From Candidatus Eiseniibacteriota bacterium (GTDB lineage: Bacteria; Eisenbacteria; RBG-16-71-46): DNA of 40,638 nt. Within the stretch, counting starts at the first letter, position 1. Every line of letters begins with the position of its first letter. The DNA lies in contig VBOY01000013.1 of the NCBI GenBank assembly GCA_005893295.1, forward strand, positions 37,071 to 77,708, given 5' to 3'. Under the pieces are notes generated by a model, which ran no database searches, was not told the DNA's origin, and was given only the letters and a program-made list of their open reading frames with translations. The position numbers and the translations under genes were made by a program. Positions 9,141 through 25,222 of this stretch are shown here, piece by piece.

Positions 9141-10939
9141 GCCACTGGCTCGGCCGTCTCGAGCGGATCGTCGCGAGCGCCTGCCTCGCGGCCATGGTGT
9201 TGTTGCCGCTCGCGGAAATCCCGGTGCGGGCGCTCTTCAAGATCGGGATCCCGGGCTCCGGGCCCTTCGTGCAGCATCTGACGCTGTGGGTCGGGTTCTT
9301 GGGTGCGGCGCTGGCGGCCCGCGACGGCCGCCTGCTGGCGCTCGCCACCGCGAGCTTCCTGCCGGAAGGCTGGCCCCGCCGCGCCGCCTCGATCGCCTCC
9401 GCGTGGGTCGCCGGCGCGGTCGCGGTGCTGCTCTGGCGTGCGAGCCTGATGATGGTGCTCACCGAGCGCACCGCAGCCACGCAAATCGCGGCGGGCGTGC
9501 CGATCTGGGTCGGCCAGCTCGTCCTGCCGGTCTGCTTCGGGCTGATCGCGCTGCGACTGGCATGGCGGGCCGCTCCGGACGCGATGGGTCGCCTGATCGC
9601 GGCGACCGGCGTGGCCGCCGGACTGTTGGTCGGCCAGTTCCCGGATCTCCTCAAGGGTGTTTCTCCCTGGCCGGGAGCGCTGCTGCTGGTGCTCGGCACC
9701 GCGCTCGGCGGCCCGATCTTCGCCGCGCTCGGCGGGTTCGCCCTCCTGTTCTTCCTCCGCGACGGCGTGACCATCGCCGCGATCCCCGCCGAGACCTATC
9801 GGCTCGCGGTGTTCCCGACGTTGGCGGCGATCCCGCTCTTCACTCTCACCGGCTTCGTGCTCTCGGAGGCGCGGGCCTCCGAGCGCCTGCTGCGCGTCTT
9901 CCGCGCCGCGGTCGGTGGGGTGCCGGGCGGCACGGCGGTGGTCTGCGCCACCCTGTGCGCGTTCTTCACCGCCTTCACCGGCGGCTCGGGGGTGACGATC
10001 CTGGCCCTGGGAGCCCTGCTCTATCAGGCGTTGCGCGCCGACTCCTACCGCGAGCGATTCTCGCTCGGTCTCATCACCGCGTGCGGCTCGCTGGGACTGC
10101 TCTTTCCCCCGTCGATGCCCCTCATCCTCTACGGGATCGTCGCCCACGTGCCGATCGAAGACGTCTTCCTGGGCGGCGTCCTTCCAGGGTTCCTGCTGCT
10201 CGGCTTGACCGCGGCGTGGGGAGTGCGCGAGGGCATGCTGACCTCGACCGGCCGGACGCGCTTCTCCTTTGGCGAGCTATGGGCTTCCATGGTCGAGGCG
10301 AAGTGGGAGCTGCTTCTGCCGGTGTTCGTGGTGGGCGCGATCTACAGCGGCTTCGCATCGCTGGTCGAGGCCTCGGCCCTCACCGTGCTCTATGCGTTCG
10401 TGATCGAGTTCCTGGTCGTGCGCGACCTGTCCGTGCGCCGCGACCTCGGCCGCGTGCTCTCCCAATGCGTGGTGGTGGTGGGCGGCGTGCTGGTGATCCT
10501 CGGCTGCGCGATGGGGCTCAGCAGCTACATGGTGGATGCCGAGGTGCCCGCCCGGATGGTCGAGTGGACCCAGGCGCACGTCCATTCGCCGCTCGTCTTT
10601 CTGCTCGGGCTCAACCTCTTCCTGCTCGTGGTCGGCTGCTTGCTCGACATCTTCTCGGCGATCGTCGTCGTGGTGCCGCTCATCGTGCCGATCGGCATGG
10701 CATTTGGAATTCATCCCGTGCACTTGGCGATTATCTTCGTTGCCAACCTCGAGCTGGGTTATCTCACGCCTCCGGTCGGGCTCAACTTGTTCCTCGCCTC
10801 GTACCGGTTCGAGAGGCCGGTGCTCGAAGTGACGCGGGCCGCGGTGCCGATGCTCCTGATCCTGGGCTTCGGCGTGCTGGTGATCACTTACGCGCCGTGG
10901 CTCACGACCGGGATCCTTCACGCCCTGGGTCGCCGATGA
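9137..10939 (+). CDS. TRAP transporter fused small/large permease (DctQM)
   Basis: DctQ-like N-terminus (VASACLAAMVLLPLAEIPVRALF) continuous with DctM (FTLTGFVLSEARASERLLRVFRAAVGGVPGGTAVVCATLCAFFTAFTGGSGVTILALG...LGYLTPPVGLNLFLAS); start probably CTG in CTGA overlap after SD GGAGGGG. Confidence 0.88.
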   Translation: MSHWLGRLERIVASACLAAMVLLPLAEIPVRALFKIGIPGSGPFVQHLTLWVGFLGAALAARDGRLLALATASFLPEGWPRRAASIASAWVAGAVAVLLWRASLMMVLTERTAATQIAAGVPIWVGQLVLPVCFGLIALRLAWRAAPDAMGRLIAATGVAAGLLVGQFPDLLKGVSPWPGALLLVLGTALGGPIFAALGGFALLFFLRDGVTIAAIPAETYRLAVFPTLAAIPLFTLTGFVLSEARASERLLRVFRAAVGGVPGGTAVVCATLCAFFTAFTGGSGVTILALGALLYQALRADSYRERFSLGLITACGSLGLLFPPSMPLILYGIVAHVPIEDVFLGGVLPGFLLLGLTAAWGVREGMLTSTGRTRFSFGELWASMVEAKWELLLPVFVVGAIYSGFASLVEASALTVLYAFVIEFLVVRDLSVRRDLGRVLSQCVVVVGGVLVILGCAMGLSSYMVDAEVPARMVEWTQAHVHSPLVFLLGLNLFLLVVGCLLDIFSAIVVVVPLIVPIGMAFGIHPVHLAIIFVANLELGYLTPPVGLNLFLASYRFERPVLEVTRAAVPMLLILGFGVLVITYAPWLTTGILHALGRR

Positions 10940-12654
10940 GGCGCTGGCGCGGGCCCGCTCGGAGGCTGCCTCGGCGATCGCCGCCCGGGGTCCGGGCGAC
11001 GGGTGCTACCGCGCTCGCCATCGCCGCGCTCTGGCTGGGCGGCTGCGCCCGGTCCGTCGGCACCAGCGCCTACGACCCCGGACCGAACGGTTCACCACGC
11101 CGCGGCGGACACGCCGTGTTCGTGCGCGAGGAGGATCCCGACTACCTCGATCCCGCGCTCTCCTACGGCCTCTACTCGGCCCCGGTGACGGAGGCGATCT
11201 TCCATACCCTGCTCGACTACCAAGGCGTTCCCGGACCGGCGGGCGCGCGGCTCATCCCCGATCTGGCCGAGGCGCTGCCCGACGTCCGCGAAAGCGGAAC
11301 GCTGTACTGCTTTCGCGTGCGGCGCGAAGCGCGCTTCGGCGCACCGCTCCACCGTCACATCACCGCCGCCGACTTCAAGTACTCGATCGAACGGCTGTTC
11401 AAGGTCAGCTCGCCCGGGGTCAACTTCTACCGTCACATCGTGGGCGCCGATCGCGTGCTGGCGGGCCGAGATTCGCTGCTTCAGGGCGTGATCGCGCGCG
11501 GGGACTCGCTCTACATCCGGCTCACGAAACCAGACCCGGTGTTCCTCCACATCGTCTCCATGACCTTCACCGCCCCTCTGCCGCGCGAGATCGCGGAGCC
11601 CTACGCGCGCACCTTCTCGCAGCACACCGTGGCGAGCGGCCCGTTCCAAGTGGCCGAGTTCGTCCCGCGACGGCACGTGATCCTGGTGCGCAACCCCGAC
11701 TACTGCGGCACGCCAGCCTGGCTCGATACCTTCGAGCTCAGGCTCGGCGTGAGCGCCGTCAACGGCGTGGCGCTGATCCGTCGCGGTCTGGCCGACGGCG
11801 GGTTCTTCGAGGTTCCGCCGGCGGAGTACGCGCGACTGCGGGCGGATTCGGTGTGGCGGGGCCAGATCAGCGTGGATGACGGGCTCGAGACCGATTTCCT
11901 GTTCTTCAACGTGCGCAAGGCCCCCTTCAACGACCCGCGCGTGCGGCAGGCGATCTGCTGGGCGGTCGATCGCCGCGCGCTGCTCAAGGCCTATTCGGGC
12001 AAGGGCCGAATCGCCGGCGAGTTCCTTCCGCCCGGGATGCCGGGAGCCAGGCCCCTCGGCCGCTACGCCGGGCCCGACCTCCGGCGTGCCCGCCAACTGC
12101 TCGCGGCGGCGGGCTACCCGCGGGGCTTCAGGACCCGTCTCTACGGGTACACGGCCGAGCCGATCCCCCGGCTGCTCACGATCGTGCAGCAGCAGCTCGC
12201 CGACGTCGGCATTCGGGCCGATCTCGACATGGGCGAAGCGGTCGGCTACACGTCGATGGCCCAGGACACGTCGAACCACGTTCCCTTCGGCTACTACGCC
12301 TGGACTGCCGACTACGTGGATCCTTCGAACTTCTTCGATACGCTGCTCAACGGTCGCCGCATCACGGCGACGAACAACAACGATCTGAGCCTGTTCGACG
12401 ACCCGGACGTGAACGATCGGATCGAGCGGGCCATGGCGACGGCCGACGACTCGGCCCGCGCTCGCCTGTGGCGCGAAGTGGACGAGCGCGTGATGGATCA
12501 GGCACCGGTGCTGCCCTTGGTGCACATCTACGAAAGCCGGCTCTACGGCTTGAGGCTCGGCGGCTGGTACCGGCACGTCACCCGCCTCCTCAAGATCGAG
12601 GATCTGTACCTCAAGTCGCCGCGGAGCGGGGCCGCGCGGCGAGGCTCTCCGTGA
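10936..12654 (+). CDS. ABC transporter substrate-binding protein, family 5 (OppA/DppA-like) lipoprotein
   Basis: ATGA overlap; lipobox LWLGGCA; DPDYLDPALSYGLYSAPVTEAIFHTLLDY...TAADFKYSIERLF...DPRVRQAICWAVDRRAL. Confidence 0.93.
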   Translation: MRRWRGPARRLPRRSPPGVRATGATALAIAALWLGGCARSVGTSAYDPGPNGSPRRGGHAVFVREEDPDYLDPALSYGLYSAPVTEAIFHTLLDYQGVPGPAGARLIPDLAEALPDVRESGTLYCFRVRREARFGAPLHRHITAADFKYSIERLFKVSSPGVNFYRHIVGADRVLAGRDSLLQGVIARGDSLYIRLTKPDPVFLHIVSMTFTAPLPREIAEPYARTFSQHTVASGPFQVAEFVPRRHVILVRNPDYCGTPAWLDTFELRLGVSAVNGVALIRRGLADGGFFEVPPAEYARLRADSVWRGQISVDDGLETDFLFFNVRKAPFNDPRVRQAICWAVDRRALLKAYSGKGRIAGEFLPPGMPGARPLGRYAGPDLRRARQLLAAAGYPRGFRTRLYGYTAEPIPRLLTIVQQQLADVGIRADLDMGEAVGYTSMAQDTSNHVPFGYYAWTADYVDPSNFFDTLLNGRRITATNNNDLSLFDDPDVNDRIERAMATADDSARARLWREVDERVMDQAPVLPLVHIYESRLYGLRLGGWYRHVTRLLKIEDLYLKSPRSGAARRGSP

Positions 12655-13622
12655 CCACGGCAACATCGGTGTCGATCGAGGCAGGCGACCTCGAAGCCAG
12701 CCGGCAGCGCTCGGCCCTGGCGGATGCGGCGCGGCGCTTCGCTGCCGACCGTTGGGCGCTCGCGGGAATGGTGTTCCTGAGCCTGCTCCTCCTCCTGGCG
12801 CTCGGCGCGCCCTGGATCGCCACCCACGTGCTCCATGCTTCGGCCTATCGGCTCGCGATGATGGACCAGATCCAGGTCCATGGCCGCCCGGTCGAGGTGG
12901 TCTCGGCCGAAGGCGTGCCGGTCGGCCCCAACGTCCGCTTCACGCTCGGGGCCGACCTGATCGGGCGCGACGTGCTGGCCCGCATCCTCTACGGCGCGCG
13001 CATCTCGCTGCTCGTCTCCACGCTCGGCACGTTGCTCGCTGTGCTGCTGGGGCTGGCCGTGGGCCTGCTGGCCGGGTTCTACCGTGGCGTCGTGGATGCG
13101 ATCCTGTCGCGCTTCATCGACGCGATGATGGCAATCCCCATCCTGCTGTTGGCGATCGCGCTGGCCTCGGTGCTGCGCGGCGGCAGCGTGTGGACCGTGG
13201 TGTTGATCCTGGGGCTCGTGAACTGGACCTACCTGGCGCGCATCCTGCGGGCCGAGGTGCTGTCGCTGCGGGAGAAGGAGTTCATCGAGGCGGCGCGGGC
13301 GGTCGGCGCCGGCGACCGCCGCATTCTGGCGCGCCACGTGCTGCCCAACCTGGCCGGGCCGCTGCTGGTGTTCGCCACCCTGTCGATGGCGGGGAACATC
13401 CTGCTCGAGAGCGCCCTGTCGTTCCTCGGGGTGGGAATCCAGTCACCGACGCCGTCGTGGGGCAACATGATCCAGGAGGGGATGGGGTTCTACACCGTGG
13501 CCTGGTGGATCACGCTCTTTCCGGGGCTCGCGATCCTGCTCACCGTGGTGAGCCTCAACCTGGTCGGCGACGGGCTCAAGGACGCCCTGATGCCCGGATC
13601 GCGGGCGCGGAGCCGGCCGTGA
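12651..13622 (+). CDS. ABC transporter permease (DppC/OppC-like)
   Basis: GTGA overlap; GADLIGRDVLARILYGARISLLVS...EFIEAARAVGAGDRRILARHVLPNLAGPLLV EAA motif. Confidence 0.93.
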   Translation: MTTATSVSIEAGDLEASRQRSALADAARRFAADRWALAGMVFLSLLLLLALGAPWIATHVLHASAYRLAMMDQIQVHGRPVEVVSAEGVPVGPNVRFTLGADLIGRDVLARILYGARISLLVSTLGTLLAVLLGLAVGLLAGFYRGVVDAILSRFIDAMMAIPILLLAIALASVLRGGSVWTVVLILGLVNWTYLARILRAEVLSLREKEFIEAARAVGAGDRRILARHVLPNLAGPLLVFATLSMAGNILLESALSFLGVGIQSPTPSWGNMIQEGMGFYTVAWWITLFPGLAILLTVVSLNLVGDGLKDALMPGSRARSRP

Positions 13623-14569
13623 CCGTCACCATCGCGCGGCGGCTCGCGTTGAGCGTGGTGGTGCTGGTGATCGTGTGCGCGATCACCTTCGTGATCTTCT
13701 TCGCCGTGCCGGGCAAGCCCGCCGAGCTGATCGCGGGCAAGTACGCCACGCCCCAGACGGTCGCCCTGATCGAGAAGCGCCTCGGGCTCGATCAGCCGAA
13801 GCCGCTTCAGTTCCTGCGCTTCATCACGCACGCCGCCCGTGGCGACTGGGGGTTCTCCTACGTGAGCCAGCAGCCGGTACTGCCGACGATTCTGGTGGCG
13901 TTCCCGAAGACGTTGTCGCTCACCCTCGGCGCGCTGGTGATCTGGATCCTGCTCGGCGTCCCGGTGGGTATCCTGAGCGCGCTCAAGCCGGGCTCGGTGT
14001 GGGATCGCATGGCGATGGTGGGAGCGTTGGTGGGCATCTCGATGCCGGCGTACTGGATCGGCCTGCTGTTCCTGCGATTGTTCGCGGACCTGCTCGGCTG
14101 GTTTCCCCTCGGCGACTATGAGGAGATCGCGCGCGCCGGGGTCTCGGGCTGGGCGCACCACCTGGCGCTGCCCTGGGTGACTCTGGCGCTGCTCTACGCC
14201 GGCTGGTACGCGCGCATGACCCGCGCCCAGATGCTGGACGTCGCGCGTCTCGACTACGTGCGCACGGCGTACGCCAAGGGGCTGTCGCGGCGTGCCGTGG
14301 TGGGTCGGCACATCCTGCGGAACGCCCTGCTGCCGCTCGTCACCATGCTCGGCATGGACGTGGCGTATTTGTTGGGGGGCGCGGTGCTCACCGAGAGCGT
14401 GTTCGGGATCCCCGGGATCGGTGGCCTCGCCTGGCGCGCGATCCGCATGCGCGACTTGCCGATGGTCATGGGCACGGTGTTGTTCGCCGCGGTGTTCATC
14501 GTGCTCGCCAACCTGATCGTCGACCTGATCTACTGCGCGCTCGATCCACGCATCCAGGCCGACGCCTGA
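13619..14569 (+). CDS. ABC transporter permease (DppB/OppB-like)
   Basis: GTGA overlap; RGDWGFSYVSQQPVLPTI...DYVRTAYAKGLSRRAVVGRHILRNALLPLVTMLG...ESVFGIPGIG. Confidence 0.93.
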   Translation: MTVTIARRLALSVVVLVIVCAITFVIFFAVPGKPAELIAGKYATPQTVALIEKRLGLDQPKPLQFLRFITHAARGDWGFSYVSQQPVLPTILVAFPKTLSLTLGALVIWILLGVPVGILSALKPGSVWDRMAMVGALVGISMPAYWIGLLFLRLFADLLGWFPLGDYEEIARAGVSGWAHHLALPWVTLALLYAGWYARMTRAQMLDVARLDYVRTAYAKGLSRRAVVGRHILRNALLPLVTMLGMDVAYLLGGAVLTESVFGIPGIGGLAWRAIRMRDLPMVMGTVLFAAVFIVLANLIVDLIYCALDPRIQADA

Positions 14570-16640: not shown

Positions 16641-17552
16641 ATGCCGAAGCCCAGCACGCCGTCTCCCATCGACCCCCACTCGATCGAAGAACCCGGCCTC
16701 CCCAAGAAACGCGTGCGTGTGAACGTCGCGGCGCTGAGCGACCGCGGTCACGTGCGGGAATCGAACGAAGACGCCTACGTCGTCTTCCGCATCGGCCGCT
16801 ACCTCGAGCGCGTGGACAGCAATGTCCCCGAGAGCGAGCTGCCGTCACGCTACGAAGAAGCGGGACACGTTATGGTCGTGGCCGACGGGCTCGGCGGCCA
16901 CGAGGCGGGGGACGTGGCGAGCCGCACCGCCCTGGTCACCACGCTTCGATTGATCCTGCGGGCGCCGAGGTGGGCCCTCAGGCTCGACGATCCGACGACG
17001 CGCGAGGCCGAGATCCGTGGATTGCTTGCCCGCTCGAAGACGTATCTCGCGAGCATCCATGCGGCGCTGCGTGAGCAAGCCTCGACGGACGCTCGCCTGG
17101 CCGGCATGGGCACCACGCTCACGGGCGCCTACTCGGTCGGCGCGGACCTGTTCGTGCTGCACGTCGGCGACTCCAAGGCCTACCTGTTGCGTGGCGGCGC
17201 ACTCGCCAAGATCACCCACGATCACACCGTGGCCCAGGAGTACGCGGATCGCGGAATCATCTCCCAGGAAGAAGTGCCCAGCCATCACATGCACCATGTC
17301 CTGACGCGCGCCGTGGGTGGCCCCGAGGAAACGCTGGAAGGCGACATGCATCACCTGCGGGTCGCGCACGGGGACCGGCTGCTGCTGTGCTCGGATGGGC
17401 TCACCGATCTTGTGACCGAGGACGAGATCGCGGCGATCCTGCGCAGTTTCCCCGCCGACGAAGCCGCGTGCCGTTCGCTCGTCGACCTGACGCTCGAGCG
17501 GGGCGGTCGCGACAACGTCACGGTCATCGTCGCCAGCTTCGCCATGGGCTAG
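16641..17552 (+). CDS. PP2C-family serine/threonine protein phosphatase
   Basis: ALSDRGHVRESNEDAYVV...MVVADGLGGHEAGDVAS...GTTLTGAYSVGADLFVLHVGDSKAYLLR...LLCSDGLTD...GGRDNVTVIV. Confidence 0.95.
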   Translation: MPKPSTPSPIDPHSIEEPGLPKKRVRVNVAALSDRGHVRESNEDAYVVFRIGRYLERVDSNVPESELPSRYEEAGHVMVVADGLGGHEAGDVASRTALVTTLRLILRAPRWALRLDDPTTREAEIRGLLARSKTYLASIHAALREQASTDARLAGMGTTLTGAYSVGADLFVLHVGDSKAYLLRGGALAKITHDHTVAQEYADRGIISQEEVPSHHMHHVLTRAVGGPEETLEGDMHHLRVAHGDRLLLCSDGLTDLVTEDEIAAILRSFPADEAACRSLVDLTLERGGRDNVTVIVASFAMG

Positions 17553-18946
17553 TCGCCCCCGGGCGGCCGCGCGTGTCGCCCGGCGGCGATCGTGGCGAAC
17601 GAGCGGCCGTGCAACTCCTCCGGCGTCACGCCGGCGTCGAGCGCCTCCCGCTCGGTGAGCGCCCCGCAGCGGATGCCCCGCAGGAAGAAGTTGATCAATC
17701 CGTGCGCGGTCGCGGCGTCGTCGAACACGTTGCCCCTCATGGCCGTCCTCGCCGCGGCGTCGACGAACGCCTTGAGGCGCGCTCCCGCTTCGAGCCGCCC
17801 TTCGAGGAAGAATGCGAACACCGCCGCGTAACGCGCCGGGAGCTGTCCCGGGCTCAAGTCCCAGCCCTGGTAGATCCCATGGCGGAGTGAGCTCCGGACG
17901 TTGTCGGCATGCAGCCTCCATGCCGCGTGCACGGTGCGTCGATTCTCCTCCTGTTGGCGCGCGGTGAGGCTCGGACCGTGCGGGCCCGCGCGATGTGGGG
18001 GCGTCGGCAGCACGGTGGTCGCGCCATCCGAGATCATCACGCGGGTGCCGGCGAGGCTCACCTGCACGACATGGCGCGCGAAGTCGCAAGCCGGGTGGGT
18101 GTGGGTCTGGTGGGCCGCCGTGATGCCGAGCTGTGCGGTGTAGTCGTAGGTTCCGAAATGAGCGCCGCGGCAGCGCCCGCGCGCCGCCGCTACCAGCGCC
18201 GGGAGCGCGACCGCCCCACGAGGATCGAGAATCGACTGCGGAGTCTCGATCATCAGCTCCAGTCGAAGCGATCCGGGTGCCATGCCGGTATGGCTCTCCA
18301 GCATCTCGAGCAGATCGACCAGGCATGCCACCTGTTCGGGAGAGGACACCTTGGGCAGCGTGACGACGAATCCGCTCGGGAGCGTCCCGCCGGTGCGCGC
18401 GGCGAGCGTGCCGATGCACAGGTCGAGCGTGCGCACCGCGCGACGCCCCGACTCCTCGGTGAGCGGCTTGATGCGTAGGCCCACGAAGGGGGGTAGCGTG
18501 CCGCGCTCCATGCCGAGCGCGAGCTGCTCGGCCACTATGACCGCATGGCCGTCTTCCTCGGCGTCGGAGCGCTGGCCATAGCCGTCCTCGAAGTCGACGC
18601 GGAAGTCCTCGACCGGTTCGCGCTCGAGCTTCTCGATCACCCGGGCGTACACGCCGTCGGAAAGCCGATCTGCTGCCGCCTCGAGGTCGTGGCCACCGCC
18701 CGGCCCAAGGCCCATCGCGTCGGCGAACGTCTTGGGATCCGGCGCGTAGTGCCGGATCCCGCCGAGAGCCGTCGCTCCCAGCTTGGCCGAGATGTCGCAT
18801 CTGAACAGATGTGCACCTCCGTAGACGGTGTGCACGGGTTGGCGTGCGCTCGTGTCTTCCGGGGTGCCCTCGGCAATGGCGCGGCTCGATCGCCCCAGGC
18901 GCGCCAGGATCTCGCATGCGCGATCTTCGTCGAGGATTGAAGCCAT
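17549..18946 (-). CDS. HpcH/HpaI aldolase/citrate lyase superfamily protein (DUF6986-like)
   Basis: DFRVDFEDGYG...LRLELMIETPQSILD...GAHFGTYDYTAQLGITAAHQTHTHPACDFARH; convergent stop shared with the PP2C gene. Confidence 0.8.
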   Translation of the reverse strand: MASILDEDRACEILARLGRSSRAIAEGTPEDTSARQPVHTVYGGAHLFRCDISAKLGATALGGIRHYAPDPKTFADAMGLGPGGGHDLEAAADRLSDGVYARVIEKLEREPVEDFRVDFEDGYGQRSDAEEDGHAVIVAEQLALGMERGTLPPFVGLRIKPLTEESGRRAVRTLDLCIGTLAARTGGTLPSGFVVTLPKVSSPEQVACLVDLLEMLESHTGMAPGSLRLELMIETPQSILDPRGAVALPALVAAARGRCRGAHFGTYDYTAQLGITAAHQTHTHPACDFARHVVQVSLAGTRVMISDGATTVLPTPPHRAGPHGPSLTARQQEENRRTVHAAWRLHADNVRSSLRHGIYQGWDLSPGQLPARYAAVFAFFLEGRLEAGARLKAFVDAAARTAMRGNVFDDAATAHGLINFFLRGIRCGALTEREALDAGVTPEELHGRSFATIAAGRHARPPGGD

Positions 18947-19179
18947 ACTGGCCTCACTCTAATCGAGGCAGCCAGCGTGAGCCGCAGTTTCCTGTGGCGT
19001 CGCCGCCTGGACTTTGACAAAATCATGACTAAGCGAGGTCGTTGCGTTGAGTGTGGCGACCAAGCGCTCCTCCTAGGGAGCAATGATCGCGGGTCCACGC
19101 GTGTGAGCGGGCTGGGTCTCCCGACCGGCCCGCTCGGCGTTGGGGGCTGGTTGGCTCCTCAGGAGCGCGCTGTGGCACA

Positions 19180-21165
19180 GTGGGCTCCATGCCATCCGCG
19201 CCCGGCACGCCGGACCTGCTCGAGCGAGCGCTGGGGGCGTTGCAACGGCCTTTCGCACCCTCGAGCGAGCTCCCACAGCGCTTGATCGTCGTCGACGTCG
19301 AGCGGCAGCGCTTGGCGTTGGTGGAGCGGGCCCAGGTCACGCTCGAGTTCCCCGTATCGACCGCGAGCGCGGGTGTGGGGGGGATTGCGGGATCGCTTCG
19401 CACGCCACCCGGGTGGCACCGCGTACACGCTCGCATCGGCGAGGGCGCGCCGCTCGGCACCGTATTCGAGAGCCGGGTGCCGACGGGCGAAGTGTGGGAC
19501 GGCGGGCCAAGCGAGGACGATCGGATCCTGACGCGCATCCTGACCCTCGAGGGTTTGGAGCAGGGCGTGAATCGTGGCCCCGGCTGCGATTCGCTCGAGC
19601 GATTCATCTATATCCACGGCACCAACCACGAACGCTTGCTGGGCCGCCCGGCCTCGCACGGTTGCGTGCGCATGTCGGGCCGCGACGTGGTCCGCCTGTT
19701 CGACCGCGTCGAGATCGGCGACCCGGTGGTGATCGTCGGCGAGGACGCTCGCCCGGGGTTTCCCGACCCGCTCTCCGCGGGACGCTTCCACTACGCCGGT
19801 ATTGCCGGCAGCGGGATGAGCGCGCTCGCCCAGTTCCAGGCGATGCGCGGCGGCCGGGTGAGCGGGAGCGACCGCGCGTTCGACCAGGGAGGCCGTCCCG
19901 AGGCGCGGCAGGCGCTCGAGCGGCTCGGCATCGAGGTCCTTCCGCAGGATGGCAGCGGTACCGGCGAGGGGTGCGCCGCGTTGGTGGTGTCGACGGCGGT
20001 CGAGTCGGAAGTGCCGGATTACGCGCGTGCCCGCGAGCGGGACGTGCCGATCGTTCACCGCTCCGAGCTGCTCGCTCACTTCGTGCGCACCCACCGCACG
20101 ATCGCCGTGGCCGGAACCAGCGGAAAGTCCACGGTGGTGGCGATGGTGTTCGAGATCCTGCGCGCACTCGACGCCGCTCCCTCGGTGATCACGGGCGGGG
20201 AGCTGGCCACGCTGCAGCGCCAAGGACTGTGGGGGAACGCCTATGCATCCGGCTCCGACCTGCTGGTGGTCGAAGCCGACGAGAGCGACGGGTCGCTGGT
20301 TCACTACCAGCCGGCTCTCGCCGTGCTGCTCAACCTCCACAAGGATCACAAAGAAACGGGCGAGGTGGCGGCGCTGTTTTCGGTCTTCGCCCGATGTGCG
20401 AGGGAGGCGTGCGTGGTGGGCGAGGGCGTCGCGCTCCGCCATCTCGCGCCAGGCGCTCGCACCTTCGGGTTCGGCCGGGAGGCAGCGGTGCGCGGCGTGG
20501 AGGTGATGCTCGATGCCGAAGGCAGCACCTTCGAGGTGGACGGCGTGCGGTTCACCCTGGCGGTGCCCGGACGGCACAACGTCGAGAACGCGCTCGCCGC
20601 GATCGCGACGTGCCAGGCGCTCGGCTTCCGGACGGCCGCCCTGGCGAAGCCGCTCGCCGGCTTCCACGGAGTGGCGCGACGCTTCGAGTCGCTGGGCCGC
20701 GCCCGCGGCGTGGAAGTGGTGGACGACTTTGCCCACAACCCGGCCAAGATCGCGGCGGCGATCGCGACCGCCCAGCGCCGCGCCCGTCGCGTGCTCGCGG
20801 TCTACCAACCCCACGGCTACGGACCGACGCGCTTCTTGAGGCACGATCTGGTGGACGCGTTCGCGGCAGCGCTTTCCCCCGAGGATTCCCTGTGGCTGCT
20901 CGAGGTGTTCTACGCAGGGGGGACGGCGAAGCGCGATTTCTCGGCCGCCGACATCGCGGCGGAGGTCGCCGCCCACGGCGTGCGCGCCGAGTTCGCGGCG
21001 AGTCGCGAGGCCTTGGTGAGCCGGCTCACCGAGGAAGCGCGCGAGGGCGACCTGGTGCTGATCATGGGGGCCCGGGATCCCTCGCTCGCCACCCTGGCAC
21101 GCACCATCGTCGGAGCGCTGGCGGGCGCGCCGGATGCGGGCCGAATCGGAGCCCCGCGCCCGTGA
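19180..21165 (+). CDS. Fusion protein: N-terminal L,D-transpeptidase (YkuD) domain + C-terminal Mur ligase (MurC/Mpl-like)
   Basis: YkuD motif IYIHGTNHERLLGRPASHGCVRMSGRDV; Mur ligase N-terminal motif FHYAGIAGSGMSALAQF, P-loop AVAGTSGKSTVVAM, VVEADESDGSLVHY, LNLHKDHKE, VVDDFAHNPAKIAAAI. Confidence 0.9.
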   Translation: MGSMPSAPGTPDLLERALGALQRPFAPSSELPQRLIVVDVERQRLALVERAQVTLEFPVSTASAGVGGIAGSLRTPPGWHRVHARIGEGAPLGTVFESRVPTGEVWDGGPSEDDRILTRILTLEGLEQGVNRGPGCDSLERFIYIHGTNHERLLGRPASHGCVRMSGRDVVRLFDRVEIGDPVVIVGEDARPGFPDPLSAGRFHYAGIAGSGMSALAQFQAMRGGRVSGSDRAFDQGGRPEARQALERLGIEVLPQDGSGTGEGCAALVVSTAVESEVPDYARARERDVPIVHRSELLAHFVRTHRTIAVAGTSGKSTVVAMVFEILRALDAAPSVITGGELATLQRQGLWGNAYASGSDLLVVEADESDGSLVHYQPALAVLLNLHKDHKETGEVAALFSVFARCAREACVVGEGVALRHLAPGARTFGFGREAAVRGVEVMLDAEGSTFEVDGVRFTLAVPGRHNVENALAAIATCQALGFRTAALAKPLAGFHGVARRFESLGRARGVEVVDDFAHNPAKIAAAIATAQRRARRVLAVYQPHGYGPTRFLRHDLVDAFAAALSPEDSLWLLEVFYAGGTAKRDFSAADIAAEVAAHGVRAEFAASREALVSRLTEEAREGDLVLIMGARDPSLATLARTIVGALAGAPDAGRIGAPRP

Positions 21166-21176
21166 CGCGGGCTTTT
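21158..21176 (+). terminator. Candidate intrinsic terminator at the end of the YkuD-Mur fusion gene
   Basis: GCCCG-TGACG-CGGGC followed by TTTT. Confidence 0.45.
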
Positions 21177-21255
21177 GCGGTGGATTCCACGCGTCCCCTT
21201 CGGTAAAAATGATAGCGAGGCTCGAAGCGCGAATGATCGGTACGGGTGGGAACGG

Positions 21256-22461
21256 ATGTCGATGAATCCTCGGCTGTTGCTCTCGGCGGCGCTGCTCGCG
21301 CTCTCGCCGGTCGCCGGCTGGACCGGCGGGCTCGGCGACCCGTCTGCGGCCTCGCCCACCGCCGGGGGAGCGGGCGTCGAGCGGTGCGGCACGTCGAGCC
21401 CCACCGCCGCGGACGCGGTCCACGTCGCGGCTGCGCTCGGCCGATGGCGCCAGGAGCGCAACGAAGCCCCGACCGGTGGAACGATCCAGGTCGCCGTTCA
21501 CGTGATCACCGACGGCGTGGAAGGTCGGGTCACCGACCGGCAGATCGAGGACCAGATTCGCGTGCTCAACCAGGGCTTTTCCGCCACCGGGTTTCGGTTC
21601 GAGCTCGCGACCATCGATCGCACCGACGACCCCATCTGGTTCCGGATCTCCCCCGGGAGCATCAAGGAGAAGCGCGCCAAGCAGGCCTTGGCGATCGATC
21701 CCGCCCATCGGTTGAACCTCTACCTCTGCGCGCCCGCGCACGACCAGCTCGGGTGGGCGACCTTGCCCTACGTCTCCACCGAGGAAGATCCGATGCACGG
21801 CGTCGTCGTCCACTACGGGACGCTGCCCGGCGGGTTCATCTCGGGCTTCGATCGAGGGCGAACCGCGGTGCACGAGGTCGGCCATTACCTCGGGCTGTTC
21901 CACGCCTTCCCGTTCGGCTCAAAGGCTCCGGGTGACGGCGTCGAGGATGCTCGGTCCGAAGCCAGCGCGGCGCTCGGTCGCTCGACCGGACGCAACCGTC
22001 CCGATCCGGGAGAAGATCCGATCCGCAACTACATGGGCTACGGCGACGACGCTTCCGTGACCGAGTTCACGGCAGGACAGGTAGCGCGCATGACTGAGGC
22101 CGTGGCAGTCTACCGCCCGAGCCTGCTCGGCGCCGCCCCGCGCGCCGCGGGCCGCGAAGTAGCGCCCGAGGACGCCGCGTCGCCGAACGACCAGACCAAG
22201 GCGATCGAGTTCCGCGGCGCGTTCCCGAATCCCTTCCACTCCGAGACCGCAATTCGCTTCTCGGTGCCACACAGCCAGCGCGTGGCGCTGCGCGTCTACA
22301 CGTTGACCGGCCAGCTCGCGCGCACCTTGATCGACGCGCACCTGCCCGCCGGCTCTCATAGCGCCCTGCTGTCGAGCGGCGACCTGCCCTCGGGGATGTA
22401 CGTCTTGGTGCTGCGCGTAGGGCAAGCGCAGATGACCCGCAGCGTCATCCTGGTGCGCTGA
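21256..22461 (+). CDS. Secreted M43 (pappalysin/cytophagalysin-like) zinc metalloprotease with C-terminal sorting-type Ig-like domain
   Basis: Signal peptide; Zn motif HEVGHYLGLFH; RNYMGYGDDASVTEFTAGQVARM Met-turn region; C-terminal PNPFHSETAIRFSVPHSQRVALRVYTLTGQLARTLID...LPSGMYVLVLR. Confidence 0.9.
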   Translation: MSMNPRLLLSAALLALSPVAGWTGGLGDPSAASPTAGGAGVERCGTSSPTAADAVHVAAALGRWRQERNEAPTGGTIQVAVHVITDGVEGRVTDRQIEDQIRVLNQGFSATGFRFELATIDRTDDPIWFRISPGSIKEKRAKQALAIDPAHRLNLYLCAPAHDQLGWATLPYVSTEEDPMHGVVVHYGTLPGGFISGFDRGRTAVHEVGHYLGLFHAFPFGSKAPGDGVEDARSEASAALGRSTGRNRPDPGEDPIRNYMGYGDDASVTEFTAGQVARMTEAVAVYRPSLLGAAPRAAGREVAPEDAASPNDQTKAIEFRGAFPNPFHSETAIRFSVPHSQRVALRVYTLTGQLARTLIDAHLPAGSHSALLSSGDLPSGMYVLVLRVGQAQMTRSVILVR

Positions 22462-23011: not shown

Positions 23012-25222
23012 GTGACTTTCGGGTCGAAGTCGCTCTTCGGTTTCATAGGGTTGTTGCTGGCAACGAGCCTGGCCGGCAGCGCCGCGTCAGAGCCTTGTCC
23101 CTCCGGCACCTTCGTTCCCGTCCAGCTCCTGATCCGCCCCGAGAATCCGTGCGCAGGCAGGGACGTCGAGCTTGTCATCCTGAGCTGTGGCCCTTGCGTG
23201 CGGCTGGTCGGCCTCGAGGGGCCCGACTCGCTCAGAGTACGCGCGCGCATGCGGCCGTTCCTTTGCATGCCTGCGGTCTGCTTCCAGGATACGCTCGTCG
23301 TTCGTCTCGGCCCGTTGGCGGCGGGCACGCAAACCTTGAATGTCAGGGTGATCGGCGAGGTGGTCCATCCGGATAGCAGCGTGTGCATCGCCGAGCGCAC
23401 GGAGACCCTGACCTTCACGGTGGGCTCGGCGTGCGGGCCCCAGGGACCGCTCCCGTACTTGGACCAAGTCGAGATTGGAACCCAAGTGATCTGCGTGCGC
23501 GCCCCGTGTCCGCCGCTCGCCTGCCCGTTCGTGTTCATCCCGGTGGGCCTGCGCGGGCACTTCGACACCGACTGCATTGGGCTCCAGCGCGTCGAGGTGC
23601 TGCCGAGGCGCGCGTATCCTGCTCCGCCCTTCGTGCGGATCGTCTACGGCCAGAACGATTGCAGTCGCAGGCCGTGCATCGACGGCACGTTCCCGTGGTC
23701 GACCCGGCTGGCGATCCCGGAGCTCCCTCCAGGCGATTACGTCCTGCCGGTCGAGGCGGTGCTCGTTCACTCGACCTGTGGGGACTCCCTGGTCGAGACC
23801 CTGGGCTCGACCGGCGTGCCGTTCACCGTGGTCCAGGAGTGCCCGCCACTCCCCTCGCCGTCGTGCTTCACCGCCGAGTGGCACGGAGCATTCGACGGCA
23901 ATCCCTGCGAAGCGCTCGTGGCGCCCGACCGCAAGGCCCAAGTCATCCTGGAGCTGTCGCCTGGCGTAGCCCTCGCGGGGCTACAAGGCGAGTTTGCTCT
24001 CGATTCGCTGGCGCTCGAGATCACCGACCTCAAGCCGGTGGGGCCGGCGGCCGGCATGCACCTCGGCTGGCGGCCCACCCCGCGCGGCGCTCAGTTCGTC
24101 ATGTTCGCCGAGCAAGGCTCACCCATTCCGCCGTTCCTCATGGAGTGCATCCACTGTGGCTGGCCGGTGCTCCAGGTCACGCTCGGCCCGCGCGCCGGCG
24201 TGCCACTGCCGCCGGTCACGCACCTGGTCGCTCGGGGGCTGCTCGCTTCGGACTCCTTGGGCAACGCCGTGCCCGAATGCCCGTCCCTGTTCGCGCGTCC
24301 GTTCCTAGAGATGGCCGCGAGCATCTGCGCAGACCAGCCGTGCGACTTCAACGGCGACGGCAGTCAGGACGTGCGCGATCTGGTGCTGATGGTGCATTGC
24401 ATCCTCGGGGTGGGCGGGTGCCCGGATCCCAAGCCGTCCGATCTGGATTGCAATCACGACGGCACGCTGGGCGTGGACGATGTCCTCTGCTGCGCACGGA
24501 CGGTTCTGAGTGGAGGCAGCCAGGATACGATCCCGGGTCGCCCCGAGCCGGGGGTGCGCGTGTCGATGGGCCAGCCGCAAGCGGGCGGTGAGCGCGTCGA
24601 GGTGCCGATCGCGCTCGAAGGCGCGGCTCTGCTGGGCGCGGCTCGGCTGGCGATCGAATACCCGGCGGATCGCTACGACCTGGAGGGAGCGGACCTGGAT
24701 GGCGCCCCCGCCGAGTGGCTTTCGCTCCACGAGCAACAGGGGAACCAGGCGATCGTCGGACTGATCGGGCTCTCGGCCGCGGGGCGCTCGGATCTGACGC
24801 TCAGGCTCAGGCTCAAGCTCAAGCCGGGGATGCCGTCGGGCGGCCAGGTGCGACTCGCCCGTGGGCAGTTCGCCGGACCCGACGGGGCGGCGCTCGACGT
24901 GACCACCGGCCCGTCGGTGCGGAGCCTGGGTTCCGTGGAGCGCGTCAGCCTCGCGGTCCCCCAGCCCAACCCGTTCAGCCGCTCGACCCGCTTCGCGGTC
25001 ACGGTGGCACAGGCGTGCCGCCTCGAAGTGGGGATCTACGATCTCGCGGGCCGTGAGGTGCGCCAGATCCATCGCGGCTGGACGCCGGCCGGAACGCTCA
25101 CCCTGGAGTGGGACGGCCGCAGCGCGGACGGAGGGCGGGCGCGCGCCGGTCTCTACTTCGTGCGCGCCGCGGGGGCGGGGGAGACGCGGGTACGAAGGCT
25201 GGCGTTGGTTTCGGCTCCCTGA
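23012..25222 (+). CDS. Large secreted protein with dockerin-like Ca-binding repeats, possible cohesin-like domain and FlgD/T9SS-like C-terminus
   Basis: Signal peptide; PCDFNGDGSQDVRDLVLMVHCILG...DLDCNHDGTLGVDDVLCCARTVLSG; C-terminal QPNPFSRSTRFAVTVAQACRLEVGIYDLAGREVRQI...ARAGLYFVRA. Confidence 0.8.
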   Translation: MTFGSKSLFGFIGLLLATSLAGSAASEPCPSGTFVPVQLLIRPENPCAGRDVELVILSCGPCVRLVGLEGPDSLRVRARMRPFLCMPAVCFQDTLVVRLGPLAAGTQTLNVRVIGEVVHPDSSVCIAERTETLTFTVGSACGPQGPLPYLDQVEIGTQVICVRAPCPPLACPFVFIPVGLRGHFDTDCIGLQRVEVLPRRAYPAPPFVRIVYGQNDCSRRPCIDGTFPWSTRLAIPELPPGDYVLPVEAVLVHSTCGDSLVETLGSTGVPFTVVQECPPLPSPSCFTAEWHGAFDGNPCEALVAPDRKAQVILELSPGVALAGLQGEFALDSLALEITDLKPVGPAAGMHLGWRPTPRGAQFVMFAEQGSPIPPFLMECIHCGWPVLQVTLGPRAGVPLPPVTHLVARGLLASDSLGNAVPECPSLFARPFLEMAASICADQPCDFNGDGSQDVRDLVLMVHCILGVGGCPDPKPSDLDCNHDGTLGVDDVLCCARTVLSGGSQDTIPGRPEPGVRVSMGQPQAGGERVEVPIALEGAALLGAARLAIEYPADRYDLEGADLDGAPAEWLSLHEQQGNQAIVGLIGLSAAGRSDLTLRLRLKLKPGMPSGGQVRLARGQFAGPDGAALDVTTGPSVRSLGSVERVSLAVPQPNPFSRSTRFAVTVAQACRLEVGIYDLAGREVRQIHRGWTPAGTLTLEWDGRSADGGRARAGLYFVRAAGAGETRVRRLALVSAP
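24799..24822 (+). repeat. In-frame tandem hexamer GCTCAR x4
   Basis: gctcag gctcag gctcaa gctcaa, encoding alternating LRLRLKLK. Confidence 0.9.

Follow-up and report, generated by a model that had tools for sequence, protein, structure and literature searches.

A fused YkuD–Mur ligase gene in an Eisenbacteria genome, with a probable role in peptidoglycan recycling

The stretch of DNA analysed here (the window; 40,638 nucleotides from Candidatus Eiseniibacteriota bacterium) contains one uninterrupted ORF in which a YkuD domain is followed by a Mur ligase (Table 1). The start codon is uncertain: it may be the GTG at 19180 or, as a plausible alternative, the in-frame ATG at 19189. All four Pfam domains of the protein score above their gathering thresholds, so that the first-pass annotation, which had described YkuD and a full Mur ligase in one polypeptide, was right on this point; the motifs that it read as intact (HGTN...SHGCVRM, GTSGKST and DDFAHNP) are indeed all there. 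With PF01225, PF08245 and PF02875, a P-loop and the conserved catalytic residues, the second half belongs to the Mur ligase superfamily. An AlphaFold2 model of the fused protein has a mean pLDDT of 92 and a pTM of 0.86. In a Foldseek search of the PDB, MurC structures ranked at the top and Mpl (3hn7) at rank 22, the folds nearest to the ligase half being those of MurC.

Table 1. Features of the fused YkuD–Mur ligase gene (window coordinates)
Feature	Position	Strand	Basis or remark
Fused YkuD–Mur ligase gene	19180..21165	+	661 aa; ORF, Pfam domains, homologues
YkuD domain, residues 34-185	19279..19734	+	Pfam PF03734, E 3e-21
YkuD catalytic motif HGTNHERLLGRPASHGCVRM, His146-Met165, catalytic Cys162	19615..19674	+	Conservation in 15 fusions
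Interdomain linker, residues 186-202	19735..19785	+	Domain limits; pLDDT <50 at 190-192
Mur ligase N-terminal domain, residues 203-305, UDP-MurNAc binding expected	19786..20094	+	Pfam PF01225
Mur ligase middle (ATP) domain, residues 310-477	20107..20610	+	Pfam PF08245
P-loop GTSGKST within the middle domain	20113-20133	+	
Mur ligase C-terminal (substrate) domain, residues 500-632	20677..21075	+	Pfam PF02875
Clade signature DDFAHNP (MurC: DDY[GA]HHP)	20722..20742	+	Phe and Asn in every clade row
Clade signature QPHGYGPTRFL (MurC: QPH[R/L][Y/F][T/S]R)	20806..20838	+	Equivalents of HiMurC Arg377 and Arg380 are Gly and Pro
Clade signature MGARDPS (MurC: GAGD)	21064..21084	+	Alignment columns

No recycling gene was found as a conserved neighbour at the window locus, and the synteny with ampG, nagZ or ldcA that had been proposed as a check is not there. 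About 5 kb upstream (9286-14569, + strand) lie oligopeptide-type ABC transporter genes, for a solute-binding protein of family 5 (SBP_bac_5) and a BPD_transp_1 permease; import of peptides would suit recycling, but transporters of this class are generic and conserved linkage was not seen. The gene divergent from the fusion (17549-18946, – strand) encodes a DUF6986 protein (541 bits) that weakly resembles malate synthase and HpcH/HpaI aldolase domains. On the other side, the products of 21175-22461 and 23012-25222 (both + strand) carry T9SS-type sorting or FlgD Ig-like domains at the C-terminus. The former is an M43 metallopeptidase, and its reading frame opens no more than about 10 bases from the stop codon of the fusion. 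The fused gene is also overlain by a conserved antisense ORF (19162-21903, – strand), which we discounted as a side effect of codon structure in high-GC DNA. In Hyphomicrobiaceae the conserved neighbour of the fusion is a convergent gene for a YcbB-like L,D-transpeptidase, with cobalamin genes upstream.

Is the fusion genuine, or the product of a frameshift or misassembly? Genomes of GTDB species were scanned for homologues, the best 80 of 372 relatives were retained, and their loci were then searched with profiles. The YkuD–Mur ligase architecture, for which a domain search had been suggested at the outset, recurs as the same fusion in 17 of these best 80 of 372, belonging to Hyphomicrobiales, Eisenbacteria and one Syntrophorhabdus and including the cultured Methyloceanibacter species M. 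methanicus, M. superfactus and M. marginalis. Full-length fusions are 61-67% identical to the window protein in Eisenbacteria and Hyphomicrobiales, and 47% in Syntrophorhabdus. Because they recur in cultured isolates and distant lineages, a misjoin or chance origin was rejected. The two halves are separate, adjacent, same-strand genes in 15 loci among the same best 80, usually overlapping or spaced by a few tens of bases (Fibrobacterota, Krumholzibacteria, Latescibacterota, Gemmatimonadota, Raymondbacteria, one Elusimicrobia and some Eisenbacteria). Apparent gene breaks in L028, L033 and G103 look like frameshifts in a fused gene. In the window's own phylum 25 of 47 genomes have a match, and within its family most complete matches span both domains. 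A search of a plasmid collection gave no close homologue of the full fused protein. CP040041.1, filed as an A. baumannii plasmid of 561 kb but possibly a misfiled piece of chromosome, carries an elsL gene.

The YkuD half aligns with nearly the full length of the ElsL profile NF040925 (positions 5-154 of 164), scoring 129.9 bits against a curated cut-off of 270; five split YkuD partners give 127-147 bits and A. baumannii ElsL itself 328.2. In a full-length alignment that includes the YkuD catalytic Cys motif, this half is 41% identical to A. baumannii ElsL, and His146, Gly147, Asn149, Gly161 and Cys162 are invariant in 15 fusions. A periplasmic YcbB-like L,D-transpeptidase encoded next to the fusion in one locus (L012), by contrast, matches a transpeptidase model and not NF040925. 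The first-pass annotation saw no signal peptide, and a simple hydropathy scan (not SignalP) agrees: the window protein has no hydrophobic N-terminal or signal peptide-like stretch, and so lacks the export signal or membrane anchor of a periplasmic L,D-transpeptidase, unlike a YkuD protein on another contig of the same genome (C57), whose N-terminus is hydrophobic. This fits an ATP-dependent Mur ligase half and suggests that the fused protein is cytoplasmic, like ElsL. ElsL is a cytoplasmic enzyme that converts disaccharide-tetrapeptide to tripeptide and does not cleave pentapeptide (PMC8649774). We infer that the YkuD half is an ElsL-like cytoplasmic L,D-carboxypeptidase. The published survey of ElsL orthologs left out proteins of more than 200 aa (PMC8649774), and YkuD–ligase fusions were therefore filtered out rather than seen.

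The ligase half is harder to name. Its best NCBIfam match is murC (TIGR01082), at 307.6 bits below a cut-off of 335.1, and it falls well short of the mpl cut-off (TIGR01081; 117.5 against 388.7). The Mpl motif (S/T)AFFDKRSK (PMC3060825) is missing from the ligase half, where GSLVHYQP comes after EADESD. The label "Mpl/MurC-like" given earlier therefore holds as regards a Mur ligase but not as regards Mpl identity, and the protein also lies outside the MurC clade. Trees of the ligase region recover two supported groups, one with the fused, split, stand-alone and S66-paired members and the other with MurC. For the clade and MurC on opposite sides, SH-aLRT values are 97 and 99 in one tree and 97 and 96 in another (quick searches, no bootstraps). 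E. coli Mpl, represented by a single row on a long branch, is very distant in these trees. The ligase half is thus placed by sequence in a separate supported clade outside MurC.

At three alignment columns every clade row differs from all 25 MurC sequences: Tyr352 to Phe, His355 to Asn and Arg386 to Pro or Ser (E. coli numbering), the Tyr and His of the DDFAHNP region being present in 25 of 25 MurC rows. Five residues of H. influenzae MurC (HiMurC) have been proposed to receive the incoming L-Ala, namely Tyr346, His348, His376, Arg377 and Arg380 (PMC3060825). The ligase half keeps two of the five; the others are changed from Tyr to Phe, Arg to Gly and Arg to Pro. Residues for ATP, metal and diphosphate are conserved, including the equivalents of K130, E174 and H199, as are the glycine-rich loop and the SGSD diphosphate motif. 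Near the uracil site the clade as a whole differs from MurC at two positions (Leu51 to Arg, and PQDGS in the His71 region).

The window's genome also encodes a canonical MurC (518 bits, contig C111) beside other Mur ligases, and 24 of 31 genomes of relatives have a MurC above cut-off. Neither Mpl nor LdcA was found in the window's genome, and among the 31 genomes none had Mpl above cut-off or an S66 LdcA. We dropped these absences as a strong argument for replacement: they are weak evidence because both genes are rare throughout Hyphomicrobiales (Mpl in 0 and LdcA in 6 of 101 genomes). Among Hyphomicrobiales, 7 of 8 genomes that carry the fusion have AmpG above cut-off, compared with 28 of the 97 others (Fisher p 0.0018); this comparison ignores common ancestry, the eight being close relatives. 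The AmpG-like match in the window's genome is below cut-off (181.8 against 350).

A clade ligase also occurs without YkuD. One Hyphomicrobiales genome (G107) has a member, 37% identical, that is divergent from an S66 LdcA gene. Searched with this ligase, 385 genomes of Alphaproteobacteria yielded a clade member in 42, and at 26 of 30 alphaproteobacterial loci inspected an S66 LdcA-type gene is directly beside it or within a short flank; YkuD was near it at none of the 30. As read from sequence, one ligase clade is thus paired with two unrelated folds that have L,D-carboxypeptidase chemistry in common. This repeated pairing points to a ligase that acts on trimmed wall peptides and is otherwise hard to explain.

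Elsewhere the clade has other neighbours. In three Elusimicrobia loci (L043:7998-11356, L046:19-3246 and L048:8021-11335) the ligase follows a protein with C39-like and NlpC/P60 domains; in L048 a single frame of 1105 aa covers both the NlpC/P60 protein and the ligase, perhaps through fusion or perhaps through misassembly. At L056:1876-5744 and 25 similar Elusimicrobium-type loci, the gene for a stand-alone ligase lies directly downstream of dapA, an asd-like gene and dapB and overlaps the last of these. In three Elusimicrobium-type genomes (G026, G028 and G030) and in Kuenenia (G029) the clade member is the sole MurC-type ligase detected, and at the signature the Elusimicrobium members replace Gly/Pro by Ala/Ser (variant motif QPHAFTS). 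Such members may add L-Ala, making the clade mixed in function, and clade membership alone therefore does not fix the substrate.

Taken together, the ElsL-like YkuD half, the fusion or adjacency of the two halves in several phyla and, as its best support, the independent pairing of the ligase clade with S66 LdcA make it likely that the fused protein is a bifunctional cytoplasmic peptidoglycan-recycling enzyme combining L,D-carboxypeptidase and UDP-MurNAc:tripeptide ligase activities. The YkuD half would remove D-Ala from recovered tetrapeptides, free or still linked to sugar, by means of Cys162; the ligase half would join the resulting tripeptide to UDP-MurNAc, and the UDP-MurNAc-tripeptide would rejoin synthesis at MurF. 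Mpl uses tripeptide about 44-fold better than tetrapeptide (PMC3060825), and tetrapeptide that has been ligated is both harmful and a dead end (PMC8649774, PMC8630537). With trimming and ligation coupled, tripeptide would be ligated preferentially and less UDP-MurNAc-tetrapeptide would form. The two activities of the fused enzyme, its substrate and any benefit from handover are predictions, as is the tripeptide specificity of the ligase half, which no sequence feature of the ligase proves. Of the one-protein recycling module first proposed for this gene, the cytoplasmic L,D-carboxypeptidase and peptide ligase are favoured by the ElsL homology and the pairings, and the transpeptidase part is less likely. 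More tentatively, and with slightly less than even confidence, we propose that the clade is a further UDP-MurNAc-acting type beside MurC and Mpl, devoted to peptide reuse and joined independently to two unrelated L,D-carboxypeptidases, the YkuD fusion serving for proofreading, so that no peptide but newly trimmed tripeptide is let through.

Could the ligase half instead be a second MurC that adds L-alanine, with YkuD as an unrelated passenger? Its score comes near the murC cut-off, the nearest solved folds are MurC, and some Elusimicrobium genomes show this ligase type alone. We nevertheless judge this unlikely, since the cut-off is not reached, the ligase lies outside the MurC clade, three of the five L-Ala contact residues are replaced throughout and a canonical MurC is present in the same genome; nor does a second MurC explain the repeated pairing with two L,D-carboxypeptidase folds.

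The other alternatives alter one half each. L,D-transpeptidation is the usual reaction of YkuD domains and the catalytic motif is intact here, so that this domain might be a cytoplasmic transpeptidase, swapping for example the terminal D-Ala of the tetrapeptide for other amino acids before ligation. That ElsL, the nearest characterised relative, is a selective L,D-carboxypeptidase (PMC8649774) and that the clade ligase is partnered elsewhere by LdcA, also a carboxypeptidase, render this quite improbable. Least probable of all is that the ligase uses an acceptor different from UDP-MurNAc, for instance anhydroMurNAc or some other nucleotide sugar; the two clade-wide changes near the uracil site would fit it, but the glycine-rich loop and SGSD motif are conserved, and Mpl likewise deviates at the uracil site yet takes UDP-MurNAc (PMC3060825).

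Direct reuse of wall peptides is thought to require an L,D-carboxypeptidase (LdcA or ElsL) together with Mpl, and bacteria without these are assumed to degrade the peptides to amino acids (PMC9790009, PMC13046382). The half of the fused protein predicted to re-attach the peptide appears to come from a group of ligases other than that of the textbook enzyme for this step. Should L,D-carboxypeptidases prove to be paired with a second type of ligase, the lack of Mpl would be a poor guide to whether peptides are recycled, and culturable Methyloceanibacter would offer a testable candidate. We found no description of a YkuD–Mur ligase fusion in the literature searched, which covered part of the literature only.

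Among known systems, ElsL (LdtK) of A. baumannii resembles the YkuD half in its full-length homology, catalytic motif, lack of a signal peptide and expected reaction step; it differs in being a stand-alone protein of about 167 aa whose partner is a canonical Mpl. LdcA (Peptidase_S66) has the chemistry predicted for the YkuD half and adjoins the same ligase clade in Alphaproteobacteria, but its fold is unrelated and none was found in the window's genome. Mpl shares the Mur ligase architecture, the proposed reaction and the Phe at the DDF position; the window ligase is far from it in the tree and lacks both (S/T)AFFDKRSK and the EPRSNT segment. MurC is the nearest family by score and fold, from which the ligase half is set apart by its sub-threshold score, separate clade and replaced L-Ala contacts, the true MurC being encoded elsewhere in the genome. 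The MurC–Ddl fusion (NF011171, PRK14573) likewise joins a Mur ligase to a second cell-wall enzyme, but there the partner is a D-Ala-D-Ala ligase and the role lies in de novo synthesis.
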